Assembly: GCA_015067175.1 (NCBI GenBank)
Contig: SVMX01000002.1
Span: 124,001-188,000, forward strand
DNA length: 64,000 bases
DNA from: Oscillospiraceae bacterium
GTDB taxonomy: Bacteria > Bacillota > Clostridia > Oscillospirales > Ruminococcaceae
Reading direction: 5' to 3'
Below are positions 3,932 to 43,393 of the stretch, piece by piece. Position numbers and translations under genes: made by a program. Below the pieces are notes generated by a model. It ran no database searches, had not been told where the DNA came from, and saw only the letters and a program-made list of their open reading frames with translations. The first letter of the stretch is position 1, and the number at the start of each line of letters is the position of its first letter.

Positions 3932-4777
3932 ATGCGCGAGATAAACGCTTCACTTATAACCGAAACTGTAAGCCGCCTTTGCATAGACGCAAATCTGCAC
4001 CTGCCCTGCGGCATGAGGGAATGTATAGTTTCCTGCATAGATAAAGAGGAATCCCCGCTCGGAAAGAGCGTGCTGGGCGACATCGTTTCAAATCTAGACT
4101 GCGCAGACGAGCTTTCAGTGCCCATCTGTCAGGATACAGGCATGGCTGTTATCTTCGCAGAGGTAGGACAGGATTGCCACATAGTCGGCGGCGCTTTTGA
4201 GGACGCCGTAAACGCAGGCGTTGCGGACGGCTACGTCAAAGGCAGACTGCGCCTTTCCATAGTTTCCGACCCTTTCCTAGACAGAAAAAACACCAATAAC
4301 AACACACCCGCCGTTATCCATACAAAGATAGTGCCCGGCGATAAGATAAGCCTTATGGTCGCACCCAAAGGATTCGGCAGCGAAAATATGAGCCGCCTTA
4401 AAATGTTCACGCCCTCCGCAACAAGAGAGGATATCATCGGCTTTGTGACCGAAACAGTATCCCTCGCAGGCAGCAATCCATGTCCTCCAATCGTTGTGGG
4501 AGTTGGTATCGGCGGCGACTTTGAATACAGCGCTTACCTCGCGAAAAAGGCGCTCTGCCGCGACCTTGCTATAAGAAATCCCGACCCCGAGTATGCAAAG
4601 ATGGAGCAGGAGATGCTTTCCGAGATAAACAAGCTCGGAATAGGCTCACAGGGCTTCGGCGGCACTGTTACGGCGCTATATGTAAACATCGAAAAGAGTG
4701 CAACCCACATCGCGGGACTTCCCGTGGCAGTCAATATCGGCTGCCATGTAACAAGGCACGCACACGCGGTCATCTGA
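3932..4777 (+). CDS. Class I fumarate hydratase / L-tartrate dehydratase alpha subunit
   Basis: A 281-residue [4Fe-4S] hydro-lyase alpha subunit that would interconvert fumarate and malate or act on tartrate. Three Cys positions match the cluster ligands: SVPICQDTGM, GSNPCPPIVVG and NIGCHVTRHA. An upstream in-frame ATG at 3926 is only one base from the AAAGGA motif (3919-3924), so 3932 has the better spacing. Two-subunit enzymes normally have the beta subunit gene directly downstream. Here a sigma factor gene follows, so the partner must be elsewhere or absent. Confidence 0.87.
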   Translation: MREINASLITETVSRLCIDANLHLPCGMRECIVSCIDKEESPLGKSVLGDIVSNLDCADELSVPICQDTGMAVIFAEVGQDCHIVGGAFEDAVNAGVADGYVKGRLRLSIVSDPFLDRKNTNNNTPAVIHTKIVPGDKISLMVAPKGFGSENMSRLKMFTPSATREDIIGFVTETVSLAGSNPCPPIVVGVGIGGDFEYSAYLAKKALCRDLAIRNPDPEYAKMEQEMLSEINKLGIGSQGFGGTVTALYVNIEKSATHIAGLPVAVNIGCHVTRHAHAVI

Positions 4778-4860: not shown

Positions 4861-5388
4861 ATGGACACAATGTCACTAAAGGCAAGCGAAAGCTTTGAGC
4901 AGGTGATGGAATTCTATATGCCGATGGTGTATAGGATAGCTTTTTCGCGCCTAGGAAGCGCCCACGACGCCGAAGATATAACCCAAGACGTCTTTCTGAA
5001 ATACTTCCGAGCGGACATCACCTTTAACGATGAAGAGCACCGCAAGGCATGGCTGATACGCTGTGCGATAAACTGCACAAAAAGTCTTGTGACCTCTGCG
5101 TGGTTCAGACACCGCGCCTCAGACGAGGGTCTTGAAAACATGGAGGAAGCGGGAGATATCCCCGGCAGCGATGGCGATATCGGCAGAATAGAACAGAAAA
5201 ACGCCGTAATGAGCGCTGTGCTGCAGCTTCCCGAAAAATACCGTACCGTAATTCATCTGTTTTATTTTGAAGATATGTCGGTCGCACAGATAAGCAAAGT
5301 GACTGGCATACGAGAAACAACAGTAAAATCACAGCTCAGCCGAGCGCGTGATATGCTGAAACCATTGCTGAAGGAGGTAGATTTCTGA
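4861..5388 (+). CDS. RNA polymerase ECF-type sigma factor
   Basis: A 175-residue sigma-70 family protein with region 2 (DAEDITQDVFLKYF) and region 4 (LPEKYRTVIHLFYFEDMSVAQI, then the helix-turn-helix TGIRETTVKSQLSRARDML). The ATG at 4861 is chosen because GGAG lies ten bases upstream and region 2 begins soon after. The stop overlaps the start of the next gene, a membrane protein of anti-sigma layout, the usual arrangement for ECF sigma factors held at the membrane. It probably answers envelope stress, judging from the WalR-like box upstream. Confidence 0.92.
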   Translation: MDTMSLKASESFEQVMEFYMPMVYRIAFSRLGSAHDAEDITQDVFLKYFRADITFNDEEHRKAWLIRCAINCTKSLVTSAWFRHRASDEGLENMEEAGDIPGSDGDIGRIEQKNAVMSAVLQLPEKYRTVIHLFYFEDMSVAQISKVTGIRETTVKSQLSRARDMLKPLLKEVDF

Positions 5389-6221
5389 TGAGCTTCAAAG
5401 AAGAATACAAAAACTGCGCAGAGATCATGGAACCCTCGGCTCAGCAGCTTGAACGCATGAAAAGAAATGTGCTGGAACAAATAAAAACTCCTGAGAAAAA
5501 GGCTATACCTTTCAAGAAAATAGCTTACATCGGCAGTGCGGTTGCTGCATGTGCAGTGCTGTCTATCGCCGCTGTGAATATAATTCCGCGCCTTAGTACA
5601 GGCAGAAATGAGCTTGCCGCATCGTCCTTGACATCGTCAGCTGAATTGTCATACAGCGAAGCAGGTGCGGGAAAGTTCGATATGCTTACAGACGGAACAG
5701 GTGCTGCTACCGAAAATGCCACAATCGATGAAGCGGCTTCGGAACCTGCAACTGATGATGTCTTGACCGACAATGCCGATGACAGAGCAGCGGAAAACGA
5801 TGAGGAAAGTGGTGCTACAGTTGCTCCTTCCGAGGAAAAAGGTGTTACAGACAACTCTATCAACGGTTACAATGACGACACCAACGCACCGCAGGGTGAT
5901 TCAGTCAGCGCACCCACTACCACTGTGGTAGATTGCGGAAACGTCCCTGAGGATACCGCTGATATGGCTGTTACCGACAGCTCGTCCACGCTCGAAATAA
6001 GCGACGATATGAGCATGATAGCTTTTGATGGTGCCAAATACGTCCTTGTTGACAACGGAAGCGCTCCGCCGACTGACATAGAAATGTACGAAATAGAGTT
6101 ACTTGCACATGACGGCACACATTATTATGCCGAGGTCTACACAAACGACTATGTGATATTGCTGCTGATAGACGAAACGGGAACATATAAAATAATCGGC
6201 GGCTATAAAAAGGCAGAATGA
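5388..6221 (+). CDS. Probable membrane anti-sigma factor
   Basis: A 277-residue protein with a cytoplasmic N-terminus of about 45 residues, one membrane helix (IAYIGSAVAACAVLSIAAV, residues ~45-65), and a long extracellular region rich in Ala, Thr, Glu and Asp, ending in a small folded domain (residues ~200-277). The function is inferred from context: it directly overlaps the ECF sigma gene (TGATG), with a strong AAGGAGG before it. No zinc-binding HxxxCxxC motif is visible, so it is not a ZAS-type anti-sigma. Confidence 0.7.
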   Translation: MSFKEEYKNCAEIMEPSAQQLERMKRNVLEQIKTPEKKAIPFKKIAYIGSAVAACAVLSIAAVNIIPRLSTGRNELAASSLTSSAELSYSEAGAGKFDMLTDGTGAATENATIDEAASEPATDDVLTDNADDRAAENDEESGATVAPSEEKGVTDNSINGYNDDTNAPQGDSVSAPTTTVVDCGNVPEDTADMAVTDSSSTLEISDDMSMIAFDGAKYVLVDNGSAPPTDIEMYEIELLAHDGTHYYAEVYTNDYVILLLIDETGTYKIIGGYKKAE

Positions 6222-9112: not shown

Positions 9113-9295
9113 ATGCTATACAACAGCCTGCACCATCTCATAAACCGAAGCTCGTCCTCGCGCAGATTTTTCCTTGCTCTGCCTGTTGAAGTACAGATGG
9201 TGCTGCACAAAGACAATTTCCACATTCACACACAGCTTGATCTGCGGCGAAAGGCTGAGATAGTTCAAAGCCTTATGCGAAAAGATCTCATATAA
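9113..9295 (+). CDS. Small basic protein of unknown function (60 aa)
   Basis: A 60-codon frame preceded by a strong GGGAGGG site eight bases before its ATG, which is the main reason to accept it. The product is basic and rich in Leu, His and Arg, and no family is recognised. It lies between the terminator of the preceding gene and the cas-like operon. It could be expressed ahead of that operon or be unrelated. No second frame in the region has comparable translation signals. Confidence 0.5.
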   Translation: MLYNSLHHLINRSSSSRRFFLALPVEVQMVLHKDNFHIHTQLDLRRKAEIVQSLMRKDLI

Positions 9296-9479: not shown

Positions 9480-9509
9480 TTGCGCTTTTGACGAATTTTG
9501 TCGTATAAT
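9480..9509 (+). promoter_or_regulatory. Promoter of the cas5-cas8-cas7 operon
   Basis: TTGCGC, an 18-base spacer and a perfect TATAAT. The predicted start of transcription (~9516) lies just before CGGAGGTG (9518-9525). The spacer contains the dyad GACGAATTTTGTC, a possible operator. Confidence 0.62.
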
Positions 9510-9531: not shown

Positions 9532-10182
9532 ATGAACTATCCAAATGTAATACAATTTGAGCTTTCGGGACGCTATGCACTTTTCACTGACCCACTGACA
9601 AAAAGCAGCGGAGAAAAATGCACATTGCCTGTTCCTACATACGAAGCCCTTAAAGGCGCCGCACGAAGCATATACAGCAGCCGCAGCTTTTGCTGGGTGA
9701 TAGATAGCGTTAGGATAATGCAGCCAATAGTCACCGAATCAATTGCCATAACAAGAACAGGATATTTCGAGAATTTCACTGACATCTCGATATACACATT
9801 TCTGAAAGATGTGCGCTATAAAGTTTTGGCGCATCTTGAATTTCCCGATGGCACACCGCCCGAAACACAACATAAATACTACGCAATTGCACGAAGAATG
9901 CTGAAAGCAGGCGGAAAGCGCGAGGTGTTTCTCGGTGTCAGAAGCTGCATTGCTGAGGTGCGTCCTTGCCGTTTTAATACTGAAATGAGCGCTTATGACG
10001 GTCATTCGCAGTATTTCGGACTTATGCACCACAGCTTCACATACCCGACAGCAGATAGTCCGCGTTTTTCGCAGCAGCTTTTCTACTGCGAAATGAATAA
10101 CGGAATAATAACATTCCCGCCGCCCGCAGCTTGTCCGATAAACCGTAGGATAAACACAGCTAATAAGTATGCATTGGTTTGA
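9532..10182 (+). CDS. cas5: CRISPR-associated protein Cas5, type I-C (Cas5d)-like
   Basis: A 216-residue RAMP-fold protein. The N-terminal FELSGRYALFTDP and LPVPTYEALKGAARSIY segments match the Cas5d pattern, as do TFLKDVRYKVLAHLEF and the FLGVRSCIAEVRPC block. In type I-C, Cas5d cuts pre-crRNA and caps the complex at the crRNA 5' end. The Bacillus Cas5d catalytic trio is Tyr46-Lys116-His117; here Tyr48 and Lys115 can be aligned, but the His position is Tyr116, so cleavage may be lost. GGAGGTG precedes the ATG. The cas8 start lies 14 bases inside the 3' end. Confidence 0.82.
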   Translation: MNYPNVIQFELSGRYALFTDPLTKSSGEKCTLPVPTYEALKGAARSIYSSRSFCWVIDSVRIMQPIVTESIAITRTGYFENFTDISIYTFLKDVRYKVLAHLEFPDGTPPETQHKYYAIARRMLKAGGKREVFLGVRSCIAEVRPCRFNTEMSAYDGHSQYFGLMHHSFTYPTADSPRFSQQLFYCEMNNGIITFPPPAACPINRRINTANKYALV

Positions 10183-11173
10183 ACGACTTTATAGGCTTTA
10201 TGACAAGCGCGATGTACCGCTTTTCCACGAAATGACGTACACGGATATCAGCATTGACCTAAAATCTGACGGACGGCTGATCTCAGCTAGGCGTCTACGA
10301 GAGCACATGAATATTCCTGTCACCGAAAGCTCTCAAAGCCGCACTGTAAACATCTCTCCTCACCCGCTGTGCGATAATGTGTATAATCTTTCCGAGCCTA
10401 AAAGGAGAGCCGCATATCTGCAGTATCTTCGCGAGTGGGCTTGCTCAGAATACGGCAACGACGCACTTTTGGCAGTAATGCGATTTGTTGAAAGAAACTG
10501 CGTCAGCGTCATTCTGACAGAACTTAATATACAACACAAAAACAGCGAAAAAGTAAGCTTTTCTGTTGACGGAAATCCGCTTTGCGGCAGCAACGAGATA
10601 ATTCAGTCGCATATCGAATATATCCGCGCTCAGCCGACAGAAATGGGAATATGCTGCATAAGCGGAGAATACACCGCAATCTGCCGCACTCACCCCAAAA
10701 AACTTTCCTCGCCTAGCAGCAACGCAAAGCTGATATCATACCGAGAGCGTGAGCGGCTGGTTTTCAGCGGACGTTTTGACAATGCGGAAGATGTGTTCCC
10801 CATAGGGCGCGAAGTCAGCTTCAAGGCTCATGCAGTGCTTAAAAGGCTGATAAGCGAGGGCGGCGTTAAGCTTCAAAACCGCATATTTGTCGCCTTTGAC
10901 GAAAGCGGAAACACACTTCCGCTGCCGCTTATCGGCAAAGAAGCTACGCCTTTCGGAGAGGTTACATTACTAGGCTTTTGCGAAATGTGCGAGGGTAGGC
11001 TGTCGGTCACGCTTTACCGCACTGTTTCAGCCGCGGAATATACAAAATTACTGCAAATTAGTCCGATCAACAGAAAAAAGCTGCACGAACCAAACAGCGG
11101 TCACCGTTACGAACAAGCTTTAAACGAAATACTGAAAAACGTTGGAGAGAAGCCTTATGCGCCTGTTATATAA
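10169..11173 (+). CDS. cas8c: Shortened Cas8c (Csd1)-like CRISPR large subunit
   Basis: A 334-residue protein, against roughly 600 for typical Cas8c. Family features are present in order: a short N-terminal motif (FERLYRLYD), ICCISGEYTAICRTHP (~161-176), which matches the CLVTGE...HP block, AKLISYRERERLVFSG, then SFKAHAVLKRLIS and GRLSVTLYRTVSAAEY. It stops about where the helical C-terminal part starts in normal Cas8c, the part from which Cas11c is translated internally. The start overlaps cas5, and the weak ribosome site suggests coupling. Assignment rests on the motifs plus the cas5/cas7 neighbours. Confidence 0.75.
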   Translation: MHWFERLYRLYDKRDVPLFHEMTYTDISIDLKSDGRLISARRLREHMNIPVTESSQSRTVNISPHPLCDNVYNLSEPKRRAAYLQYLREWACSEYGNDALLAVMRFVERNCVSVILTELNIQHKNSEKVSFSVDGNPLCGSNEIIQSHIEYIRAQPTEMGICCISGEYTAICRTHPKKLSSPSSNAKLISYRERERLVFSGRFDNAEDVFPIGREVSFKAHAVLKRLISEGGVKLQNRIFVAFDESGNTLPLPLIGKEATPFGEVTLLGFCEMCEGRLSVTLYRTVSAAEYTKLLQISPINRKKLHEPNSGHRYEQALNEILKNVGEKPYAPVI

Positions 11174-11999
11174 AAGAGATTTCATGGCACTTATATCAGT
11201 GAGCGGAGCCACGCCAAACGGCGACCCGCTGCTCGGCGGCAGACCTCGCACCGACAGCAGCGGTTTCGGCATGATATCTGATGTGTGCATAAAACGAAAA
11301 CTGCGCGACCGCCTTTCGGAAATGGGCGAGAATATACTTGTCACATCTCAGCACTCGGGCGATGACAGCATCGCGAAGCGCATAGCCTCACTCAGAGGCT
11401 TAGATTACAGTATTCTCCATGAACAAGCCTGCTCGCACTGGTATGATATGAGAGCATTCGGGCAGGTGTTCGCTTTTAAGGGAGCGCACAGCCGTTTTCA
11501 TGACGTGCGCGGCGCGGTGACAATTCAGCACTGCTTTTCGCTGCACCCTGTCGAAATAGTGGAGCTTCCTTTGACGCGCTGTATCAACATGAGCACGGAA
11601 AAACGCCGCGGCAGTGATACGCTCGGCTCAAAAAGCTTTGTAAGATACGGTCTGTATGTGCTCAAAGGCTCGATAAATACGCATTATGCCGCGAAAAACG
11701 GCTTTTCCGATATTGACGCCGAAAAGCTAAAAACTGCGCTTATATCACTGTTTCACAATGACACGAGCGCCGCCCGCCCCGAGGGAAGCATGATAATAGA
11801 GCGGCTTTACTGGTGGAAGCACAGCACCGCCTACGGCGACTATCCGTCACACATGGTATTTGATTCGGTCATGCCAAAGCTTCGCGAGGGTGTGGAAAAG
11901 CCGCTCAGCTTTTCCGACTACGAGATATTTGAGCAGCCGCTGAAAGGGCTTTCGCCCGAAATTTTCGTTTTTGGCCGTCCTTTGGACGTTATTGTTTAA
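11157..11999 (+). CDS. cas7: CRISPR-associated protein Cas7, type I-C (Csd2)-like
   Basis: A 280-residue Cas7 backbone protein that would polymerise along crRNA. The diagnostic start is seen: RDFMALISVSGATPNGDPL, then GGRPRTDSSGFGMISDVCIKRKLRD, the Csd2 signature. Later come WYDMRAFGQVF, GAVTIQHCFSLHPVEI and the C-terminal block ERLYWWKHSTAYGDY. The ATG at 11157 has GGAGAG seven bases upstream and lies inside the 3' end of cas8. Last gene of the operon, followed at once by a strong terminator; no cas3 or other nuclease follows. Confidence 0.85.
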   Translation: MRLLYKRDFMALISVSGATPNGDPLLGGRPRTDSSGFGMISDVCIKRKLRDRLSEMGENILVTSQHSGDDSIAKRIASLRGLDYSILHEQACSHWYDMRAFGQVFAFKGAHSRFHDVRGAVTIQHCFSLHPVEIVELPLTRCINMSTEKRRGSDTLGSKSFVRYGLYVLKGSINTHYAAKNGFSDIDAEKLKTALISLFHNDTSAARPEGSMIIERLYWWKHSTAYGDYPSHMVFDSVMPKLREGVEKPLSFSDYEIFEQPLKGLSPEIFVFGRPLDVIV

Positions 12000-12016
12000 A
12001 TAAGTTATGAAAAGAA

Positions 12017-12052
12017 GAACAGCACCTCCAAGTGGGGGTGCTGTTCGGTTTT
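12017..12052 (+). terminator. Terminator after the cas operon
   Basis: A perfect 10-bp stem (GAACAGCACC with GGTGCTGTTC), extended by three more pairs, followed by GGTTTT. It also faces the convergent DUF4304 gene. Confidence 0.88.
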
Positions 12053-13795: not shown

Positions 13796-14452
13796 TTATT
13801 CCTTTTTTTCATCGCTCTTAGCCGCGGTATTTATTATCTCATCCATCAGCAGCTTTTCGCGATCTTCGCCTTTTGCTTTGCCCATCTTCTGATCACGGCT
13901 CATCTGTTCAAACTGCTCCATTATCGCATCCTTGTCCACTTCAACAACAGGCATAGGCTCGCGCAATCCCGCGTTTACCTCAAGCTCAAAAAAAGGGGTC
14001 GCAGATGTATCGAATTTCTCCGCATTCACGCCGAACACAAATTGATATTTAACGCTGCGTATTCCCGTTGTTATCTTTACGATATAGCCTCTGTTCTTCC
14101 CTTTCTTGAAAGCGGTATACTCAACGGCCTTTACATCGCTGTAGTAAAATATCTCCTCGCTGCCATTCGGCGCAGTGACCGAAAACTCAGTATCGCGGAT
14201 CTCATATTTATGTTCGCCGCGAAACCCTGCAACAAACCACACAACGGCGGCCGTCACCTCAAGCCCAAGGCAGACGAAAAACATAGAAGTAACGATTGGA
14301 TTTATTTCATCGCCAAAGTCGAAAATGCAGCCTATGACCACAAGTGCGATCATAATAAGACCTGCCGCTAAAAACGTTCCGCACAACGACTGCAGGTTAT
14401 TTACCGTGCGAAAGCTTCCGCGGCTTTGAACATTATCGTTCATTTTTTCCAT
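13796..14452 (-). CDS. Membrane protein of unknown function (paralog A)
   Basis: A 218-residue protein with two N-terminal membrane helices (~27-47 and ~57-80), a cytosolic domain resembling a PH-like bacterial fold (~85-170), and a charged coiled tail. The segment YYSDVKAVEY...GYIVKITTGIRSVKY closely matches the upstream neighbour, showing a tandem duplication. GGAGG lies seven bases before the ATG, which overlaps the neighbour's stop. The function is unknown. Confidence 0.7.
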   Translation of the reverse strand: MEKMNDNVQSRGSFRTVNNLQSLCGTFLAAGLIMIALVVIGCIFDFGDEINPIVTSMFFVCLGLEVTAAVVWFVAGFRGEHKYEIRDTEFSVTAPNGSEEIFYYSDVKAVEYTAFKKGKNRGYIVKITTGIRSVKYQFVFGVNAEKFDTSATPFFELEVNAGLREPMPVVEVDKDAIMEQFEQMSRDQKMGKAKGEDREKLLMDEIINTAAKSDEKKE

Positions 14453-15135
14453 ATGGATCCTCCATCGCTGCGACCGTCTTTTTCAAGCTCCGCATAGTTC
14501 TTGCGAGTTATCTGCTCGACTACCATCGACTCAAACATGCTCTCAACGCCCTCAGTGTCAAGCGTAGGTTTTTCTGTTGTAAAGATACCGCTATTCACTC
14601 CTAGATAATAAAACGGCGTTGCGTTGATATCCTTAAAAACCTTATTATCACTGAATATATAACGGTATTCGTATTGGCGCAGGCTTGTGGTTATCGTAAC
14701 AAGAAAGCCGCGGTGATTTCCAAACAGCTTTATTGGCTCAAATGTTATATCCCGCACATCGGAATAGTAGAAATACTCCGTCCTTTTGCCGGGGCCTTTT
14801 ACGATAAATTCATGCTCTCCCGCGTCATATTCGCATCTTCTGCCCATAAAAACAAACGCAAATATCGTACCGAATACTGCTTCCAACAAAATAGTCACTG
14901 CCATAAACACAGTTTTGCTCGTCTTAAAGCTTATCTCACCCTGTTCGGCTGCAAGATTTGCTGACACTATAATCGGCATCATCGCAATAAAGCTCACCAC
15001 AGCAAGTCCTGCTACCGCAAGCAAATACACCATCTCATGGTTATATGCGCATTTAAATGAGCCTTTGCGAATAAGCGGGAGTTCCTCTTTCTTGCCGTAA
15101 TCCCCAACTTCTCTAGCTCTTGTCAAATCGTTCAT
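14440..15135 (-). CDS. Membrane protein of unknown function (paralog B)
   Basis: A 231-residue protein with the same layout as the downstream gene: two membrane helices (~36-58 and ~75-97), then the shared domain with YYSDVRDI, GFLVTITTSLRQYEYRYIF and NATPFYYLGVNSG. The two frames overlap by 13 bases, which supports co-translation and perhaps a hetero-oligomer. No known family is recognised. Confidence 0.7.
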   Translation of the reverse strand: MNDLTRAREVGDYGKKEELPLIRKGSFKCAYNHEMVYLLAVAGLAVVSFIAMMPIIVSANLAAEQGEISFKTSKTVFMAVTILLEAVFGTIFAFVFMGRRCEYDAGEHEFIVKGPGKRTEYFYYSDVRDITFEPIKLFGNHRGFLVTITTSLRQYEYRYIFSDNKVFKDINATPFYYLGVNSGIFTTEKPTLDTEGVESMFESMVVEQITRKNYAELEKDGRSDGGSIWKK

Positions 15136-38285: not shown

Positions 38286-38530
38286 TTTTTTATAACAAAA
38301 AACGCCGATGATAATATACGTCATCGGCTGTCATTATGCTGAAAAGCTTTGAATATTGGATAGCCCTCCATCACTTAAACAAGTCGATGACAATCATACG
38401 CTTGTTCAACGTATGACCAGAAATGCACACGGCGGAATGTACACTCTTCGGCGGTAAGCCTTTCGCGCCCCGACCTCCGTCAGTCATCAAGGGGTACGCT
38501 AATCATCTGTCCCGCGCCTCTATCACATCG
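38286..38530 (-). promoter_or_regulatory. Lysine riboswitch (L box) with intrinsic terminator
   Basis: The minus-strand leader carries L-box landmarks in order: GATAGAGGCGCG, GGGGCGCGAAAGGC, CGCCGAAG, and the loop arm CTGGTCATACG near ACTTG. It ends with an 8-bp terminator hairpin (GCCGATGA/TCATCGGC, 38294-38318) and a T-tract just before asd. Binding lysine would cause premature termination and shut off asd-dapA-dapB-ACT-mscS. Confidence 0.88.
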
Positions 38531-43148: not shown

Positions 43149-43393
43149 AGCTGAGAAGAATTAAACTTCTCAGCTGAGACCGGCGAAAAAGTCCCGTTGG
43201 GACTTTTCCGCCGAAACATCCGCACTGCCCGCACTCATTGGCGGCGATGCCGCCAATTCGCACAGTTGTGCGGATAGAAGTGTTTTTTGACCGAAGTGAA
43301 TTCGGTCAAAAAAAATTATGAAAAATGCCCGCAAAGCGGGCACAAATGAGGTTTTTCGACAAACTGAGCTGAGAAGAATTAAACTTCTCAGCT
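43149..43393. repeat. Six-hairpin intergenic array bounded by duplicated 27-bp palindrome
   Basis: In 245 bases there are six stem-loops: 43149-43175, 43181-43213, a nested cruciform 43218-43275, 43283-43313 (13-bp stem), 43326-43342, and 43367-43393. The first and last are the same 27-base palindrome (10-bp stem AGCTGAGAAG). T/A tracts point outward. It lies between convergent genes and may act as a multiple terminator or be a MITE-like element. Confidence 0.75.

Follow-up and report, generated by a model that had tools for sequence, protein, structure and literature searches.

A three-gene Cas5-Cas8-Cas7 unit that probably represents a type I-C Cascade detached from CRISPR immunity

We analysed a 64,000-nucleotide (nt) stretch of DNA from an Oscillospiraceae bacterium (assembly GCA_015067175.1, contig SVMX01000002.1, positions 124,001 to 188,000), hereafter the window, which holds a unit of three genes, cas5, cas8 and cas7, of the clustered regularly interspaced short palindromic repeats (CRISPR) type I-C family. 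The genome, G000 in our survey, is a 2.14 Mb draft in 14 contigs that is 83.8% complete, and the window lies on its contig C11. The three frames, at 9532-11999 of the window, are all intact, overlap one another and run on the + strand over about 2.5 kb (Table 1). A preliminary description of this DNA had called the genes Cas5d-, Cas8c- and Cas7c-like, and profile scores bear this out. Specifically, the cas5 product scores 156.6 bits against the Cas5d model TIGR01876 (cut-off 85) and 78.2 bits against PF09704, and the cas7 product scores 243.6 bits against the Cas7/Csd2 model TIGR02589 (cut-off 182.25) and 224.6 against PF05107. The cas7 frame has two candidate starts, an ATG at 11157 and an in-frame TTG at 11142, of which the ATG is the likelier because relatives align from that methionine. 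Sequence searches of solved structures also match Cas7 and Cas5 to type I-C proteins, the chain closest to Cas5 being 4f3m (E 2.4e-51). A non-Cas identity for the three proteins was rejected since the profiles that they match are Cas profiles, and Pfam detects neither an HNH domain nor any other nuclease domain in them.

What the preliminary description did not state is that cas8 is truncated. Its product scores 112.4 bits against the Cas8c/Csd1 model PF09709 (cut-off 27) over profile positions 2-271 of 559 only, and reaches 78.0 against the NCBIfam Cas8c model, under the cut-off of 218.65. This half-coverage, together with the sub-cut-off score, indicates that cas8 codes for a truncated member of the family. 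A search of solved structures with the Cas8 sequence alone gave no match, and a search with a Cas8 profile gave weak Cas8 matches (best E 0.0043). An AlphaFold2 model of the window Cas8, built from 18 sequences (mean predicted local distance difference test score 83.8, predicted template modelling score 0.83), has five matches in the PDB at E <= 0.001, all of them chains of type I-C Cascade (CRISPR-associated complex for antiviral defence), with template modelling scores by query of 0.37-0.65; three of the five are named Cas8. Thus homologues of the type I-C core proteins Cas5c/d, Cas7/Csd2 and Cas8c/Csd1 are present, with Cas8 covering half of its profile and falling under the NCBIfam cut-off. 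In Desulfovibrio Cas8c, residues 489-612 are described as the C-terminal bundle and the source of Cas11c (PMC7684278). When aligned with 13 full-length Cas8c proteins, the four copies of the unit that have a complete cas8 (315-398 amino acids, aa) lack this bundle, and the Cas11c region that marks type I-C is absent from 4/4.

Table 1. Positions in the window of the three genes and of the signals that accompany them
Feature	Position	Strand	Description
cas5	9532..10182	+	Cas5c/Cas5d-like, 216 aa; assigned by profiles, closest chain 4f3m and triad alignment
cas8	10169..11173	+	Short Cas8c/Csd1-like, 334 aa; N-terminal body only, without the Cas11c region
cas7	11157..11999	+	Cas7c/Csd2-like, 280 aa counted from the ATG
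cas5/cas8 overlap	10169..10182	+	14 nt; identical length in 5/5 carriers
Terminator-like hairpin	12017..12046	+	Downstream of cas7; 13-pair stem followed by GGTTTTATGT
Candidate sigma-70-type promoter	9480..9509	+	TTGCGC-18-TATAAT, 22 nt upstream of cas5; weak, found by the looser scan only

To survey the distribution of the unit, we searched 295 related genomes at the protein level and the 43 genomes of the genus with a profile. The same three-gene unit with a short Cas8 occurs in 5/43 genus genomes (G000, G008, G017, G027 and G029), hereafter the carriers. It is complete in G000, G027 and G017, and contig ends cut off the start of cas5 in G008 and the rest of cas8 with cas7 in G029. In the Cas8 profile search the four complete copies score 458-560 bits and the cut G029 copy scores 152; the other 10 genus genomes with a Cas8 match score 119-156 bits, and 8/10 of these have frames of 618-651 aa, the frames of the remaining two (G033 and G002) being cut by contig ends. 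The short frame of G033 extends to the first bases of its contig and is accompanied by a Cas5 with the ordinary Tyr-Lys-His (YKH) triad, and the short Cas8 frames of G002, G467 and G332 were rejected as copies because they belong to ordinary loci with a contig-end cut or broken frames. The overlap of cas5 with cas8, constant among the carriers, ranges from 0 to 47 nt in 12 ordinary type I-C loci when the longest cas8 frame is taken. The window Cas7 is 51-54% identical to the three other copies, and in an unrooted Cas7 tree 4/4 copies split from 13 ordinary sequences at 100/100 on branches of 0.67-1.08. This pattern suggests, in a tree that has no outside root, that the unit may have arisen once in the lineage.

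No further copy scoring with this clade was found in overlapping samples, drawn from larger groups, of 396 genomes of the family, 391 of the class and 394 of the order, where one of the three scans covered only matches at E <= 1e-40, and short or split frames in G376, G458, G091, G775 and G553 (18-79 bits) were left out. With regard to carriage by mobile elements, no viral-contig locus with Cas8 or Cas7 and no phage record was found, and known-plasmid carriage was rejected in that the nine plasmid records with a match have an annotated cas8c there; the one record of the nine that was opened (H6) has a cas4-cas2-cas5-cas8-cas7-cas3 locus.

The evidence here comes from sequence alone, and all five carrier genomes are drafts (73-97% complete). 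The absence of cas1-4 genes and of an array near the unit, already claimed in the preliminary description, holds up under searches with positive controls. Specifically, tblastn with Cas3, Cas4, Cas1 and Cas2 of two ordinary loci gave no match, intact or remnant, in the window or 20 kb on each side, nor around the sister copies (43 kb in G027, 60 kb in G017, 8.9 kb in G008 and 7.6 kb in G029), and every one of these queries matches both control loci. Genome-wide, Cas1 was found in 0/5 carriers (9/14 control genomes positive) and the HD part of Cas3 likewise in 0/5 (7/14 control genomes positive), the helicase part lying outside that search, and for the remaining adaptation genes the fetched flanks of the unit contain neither cas2 nor cas4. 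Cas7-family matches number one each in G000, G008, G017 and G027, with none in G029 where the contig ends earlier. We rejected the presence of another, complete type I-C locus in the window genome, as this genome contains one Cas8 and one Cas7 match only and neither a Cas1 nor a Cas3-HD match. The suggestion that the unit relies on a type I-C array and Cas3 elsewhere in its genome is not supported, none having been found in this 84% complete draft.

The array searches gave a similar picture. Neither the window nor the fetched surroundings of the unit copies contain an array by the repeat finder, which placed an array near the cas genes in 12/13 ordinary type I-C loci; in the thirteenth, that of G001, type I-C repeat ends are present close to the end of the contig and on a different one. 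The repeat end CGNGGATTGAAAY occurs 0 times in G000, G017 and G029, once in G027 (within a 557-codon frame) and five times in G008, as compared with 8 and 3 times in two type I-C controls. Pairs of the form TTGAAAY-N50-72-TTGAAAY number 2-9 per carrier versus 23-125 in five type I-C controls, and the carrier matches listed, G008 arrays aside, have no common repeat-like sequence by eye. By these repeat-end patterns no type I-C-like array was found outside a coding gene in 4/5 carriers, and the matches of the fifth, G008, lie by a type III-D locus. Since all five carriers are drafts, and arrays often break assemblies, one could also suppose that the systems are ordinary type I-C ones and that cas3, cas1-2-4 and the array are simply absent from the assemblies. 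We regard this as highly improbable: the unit sits inside a contig with chromosomal genes on both sides in three carriers, Cas1 and Cas3-HD matches are missing from all five drafts (the chance for one gene is ~2.5e-5 as a product of incompleteness values with independence assumed), and the Cas8 truncation and Cas5 changes lie within intact genes.

The CGNGGATTGAAAY matches of G008 are short arrays that adjoin the type III-D locus with its Cas6 (L099, contig C18, 4271-11691), in which we recognised a Cas10-like protein, Csx10, Csx7-type repeat-associated mysterious proteins and, on the opposite side, Cas6. The arrays stand at both ends of this locus, near 4007-4088 and 11904-12051, with the repeat end GGGGATTGAAAC; they were missed by the array finder with 16-base words and found with 11-base words. 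They bear on the possibility that the unit is an RNA-guided DNA binder that silences without cutting and takes its CRISPR RNAs (crRNAs) from elsewhere, either from a co-resident type III-D/Cas6 system as in G008 or from arrays on visiting plasmids or phages. The retained Cas7 core and N-terminal body of Cas8 are in keeping with such a role, as is the closeness of the GGGGATTGAAAC repeat end to type I-C repeat ends, and loss of processing by Cas5 would be tolerable if guides come pre-processed. Recruitment of crRNAs in trans is also thought to occur in subtype III-G, which has neither adaptation genes nor an array, and binding without cutting is reported for some type V systems (both PMC12669027) and described for type IV-A (PMC11519345). 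We nevertheless consider it unlikely, given that the type III-D marker is found in 1/43 genus genomes and in no carrier other than G008, that no carrier has a Cas1 match, that the other four carriers are without a type I-C-like repeat end outside a coding gene, and that the Cas11 part, which is thought to support the displaced strand (PMC7684278), is gone.

We also compared the residues by which Cas5 processes crRNA. Cas5d of type I-C is described as having a putative catalytic triad of Tyr46, Lys116 and His117 (PMC3652601), and this triad reads YKH in 36/36 distinct ordinary type I-C Cas5 sequences (61 hits giving 36 distinct translations). In the clade of short-Cas8 units it is intact in 0/5, reading YKY in the window (with His117 replaced), YRH, YMH, -EA (where the start is cut) and YRC. 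According to a review the lysine is the sole invariant member of the triad, and Phe or Tyr may replace the His (PMC3727216). The invariant residue is thus lost in 4/5 clade members; the window's own Cas5 retains it and may still be active. Of 94 Cas7 positions that are invariant in 13 ordinary sequences, 55 are retained in all four copies, and 23 of 62 invariant Cas5 positions are retained in all copies; the Cas5 reference comprised 12 ordinary sequences, a separate set that largely overlaps the 36, plus one B. halodurans row.

The preliminary description had also argued that the set is maintained and not recently decayed, a view that the divergence of the copies supports for all except very recent decay. 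Protein identity between copies is 34-54%, the proportion of synonymous sites that differ (pS) is 0.63-0.85, which is near saturation, the nonsynonymous proportion (pN) is 0.34-0.48, and pN/pS is 0.46-0.71; the ratios are likely upper bounds because synonymous change is saturated. Over this distance the frames are open in the three complete units, and the parts present of the two cut units have no stops, which indicates that for the greater part of their history the genes have been constrained. A very recent onset of decay is outside the reach of this conclusion. The same evidence bears on whether the unit is a slowly decaying type I-C relic, one that lost its nuclease, adaptation genes and array and whose effector genes are intact by chance. 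Cas8 does vary in length among the four copies and the Cas5 triad residues do drift, as such a relic might. We judge it quite improbable when set against the frames that stay open near synonymous saturation and the conserved 14-nt cas5/cas8 overlap. True decay, as seen in G332, also looks different. There, in an ordinary type I-C locus that seems to be decaying (L125, contig C8, 1731-9911), the frames of cas3 and cas8 are split and cas7 is short, whereas cas1 and cas4 are whole (all genes named by eye); a short array is present, and the Cas5 reads YKH.

As to the signals and genes around the unit, the claim that it has its own promoter and terminator stood in part. The terminator-like hairpin downstream of cas7 agrees with the claim, in a stretch where the scan returned 7 terminator-like sites versus 4.1 expected. 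Evidence for the promoter is weak: the standard scan found 2 sites versus 4.2 expected, neither of them in the usual place upstream of cas5, and the looser scan that yielded the candidate found boxes of equal total (9/12 match) in 3/3 other carriers with upstream DNA, a comparison that has no chance control. Nor is there a shared upstream RNA motif, in that no 9-mer is common to three of the four upstream regions. A 60-codon open frame lies just upstream of cas5, at 9113-9295 (+). We scanned nine neighbouring genes between 4801 and 17777 against Pfam, which identified a sigma factor and a GGDEF-EAL protein upstream, and a DUF4304 protein, purD, an HD phosphohydrolase and a methyltransferase downstream; three of the nine, namely 5388-6221 and the pair at 13796-15135, have no Pfam match. 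This pair codes for two adjacent related-looking proteins, and G017 has it too, with gene order unchanged and the HD phosphohydrolase gene again alongside. The chromosomal block that the unit adjoins is shared, and largely collinear, between G000 and G017; relative to it the unit has the opposite orientation.

This neighbourhood also bears on whether the unit might be a type I-C CRISPR-associated transposon (CAST) with unrecognised transposition genes. Such type I-C CASTs do exist (PMC12669027). We find the idea barely credible here, as Pfam shows no transposition protein, TnsABC and TniQ included, among the nine scanned neighbours, of the window genes in the first 40 kb only the cas genes accompany the unit in two or more of the other carriers, and no guide array is adjacent. 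Elsewhere in the window, two identical 27-nt palindromes lie 218 nt apart between two genes (43149-43175 and 43367-43393), with no further exact match on the given strand of the fetched sequence, and a lysine riboswitch (90.5 bits) is found at 38353-38530 (-).

Overall, we favour the interpretation, to which we give a probability of roughly 60%, that the unit is a derived type I-C Cascade that became detached from CRISPR immunity and was then kept by selection, repurposed for binding. The detachment would probably have happened once in the ancestry of the lineage. In such a complex the Cas7 subunits would polymerise on RNA, Cas5 would form a cap at one end and cleave little or not at all, and the short Cas8 would be placed at the Cas5 end. 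The RNA would come from a source other than a type I-C array in that cell, possibly a host small RNA, a mixed RNA pool or a ready-made guide supplied in trans, and in a complex that has no target nuclease the effect would be exerted by binding RNA or DNA, that is by blocking, sequestering or regulating. Assembly, RNA source, target and effect are all predictions. A narrower proposal, in which a Cas7-Cas5-Cas8 ribonucleoprotein without Cas11, nuclease or array binds small RNAs encoded on the chromosome for a cellular function such as regulation or sequestration, is tentative, and we hold it at somewhat less than even odds. The preliminary description had spoken of an RNA-guided, non-cutting binder; what stands of this is a type I-C-derived unit without cas1-4 genes or an array nearby, which may bind DNA under RNA guidance. 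It did not include the features that here shape the interpretation, namely that Cas8 is only about half of Cas8c, that the Cas11 part is gone and that the site with which Cas5 processes crRNA is changed throughout the clade.

Several observations weigh against a detached and repurposed complex. The window Cas5, with its YKY triad, may retain processing activity, and 11 positions that are invariant in ordinary Cas7 are changed in all four copies, as are 7 such Cas5 positions in all copies. The genome-wide searches left out cas2, cas4 and the helicase part of Cas3, arrays with arbitrary repeats were sought only in the fetched stretches (two repeat-end patterns being used genome-wide), and arrays can be lost in assembly from drafts of this completeness. 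In addition, the TTGAAAY-pair counts of the carriers exceed those of a reversed-pattern control (0-1), the short arrays, Cas6 and type III-D effector of G008 could supply guides in that genome, and the Cas7 tree is without an outside root.

A literature search over titles and abstract openings, with subscription papers largely outside it, found no such unit described, which is weak evidence of absence. The role of array-less Cascade-like complexes is a standing question, type IV-B among them, and the same loss is seen here in a type I-C lineage. Ordinary type I-C loci are present in other species of the genus, so the order of the losses and the new function are open to direct comparison, and the set is small enough (three genes, about 2.5 kb) for expression and for sequencing of the RNA that it binds.

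When compared with known systems, the unit is type I-C by protein family, yet in sequence it fails five of the six type I-C features tested, the core proteins being the one that is present. It is like type I-C Cascade (Cas5c/d, Cas7, Cas8c, Cas11c) in its three protein families, its 5-8-7 gene order and the PDB matches of its Cas8 model. It differs in that neither Cas1 nor Cas3-HD is matched in the carriers, the unit has no neighbouring cas1-4 gene or array, Cas8 is without its C-terminal part and the Cas11c region, the Cas5 triad is altered in 5/5, and Cas7 stands on separate long branches. Subtype III-G is likewise without an adaptation module and array and is proposed to use crRNAs in trans, whereas its effector is based on Cas10 and predicted to cleave DNA (PMC12669027). 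With the type I-C CAST, I-E2 and I-F4 the unit shares a type I effector, these being either associated with transposons or variants from which Cas3 is typically absent (PMC12669027); it differs from them in that Pfam shows no nuclease domain, HNH or other, in its three proteins and no transposition protein among its nine scanned neighbours. In the passages of the 2025 classification that were covered, I-C is mentioned a single time, in connection with a CAST, and the variants without Cas3 carry HNH fusions (PMC12669027). By analogy, type IV-B (Csf) appears to be the closest functional parallel, as it too combines a core of Cas7, Cas5 and a large subunit with the absence of an array, adaptation genes, a crRNA maturase and a target nuclease; type IV-B complexes are reported on mixed non-CRISPR RNA of regular length (PMC7937560). 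Unlike type IV-B, the unit has type I-C proteins with no Csf profile (Csf1, Csf2 or Csf3) among the matches, has no Cas11 part, has no CysH among the nine Pfam-scanned neighbours, and is chromosomal in three carriers instead of being on a megaplasmid. The two probably have separate origins, as the protein families suggest. If so, and if the favoured interpretation is true, the unit would represent a second, independent exit from immunity of the type IV-B kind, within one genus in which other species keep the complete system.

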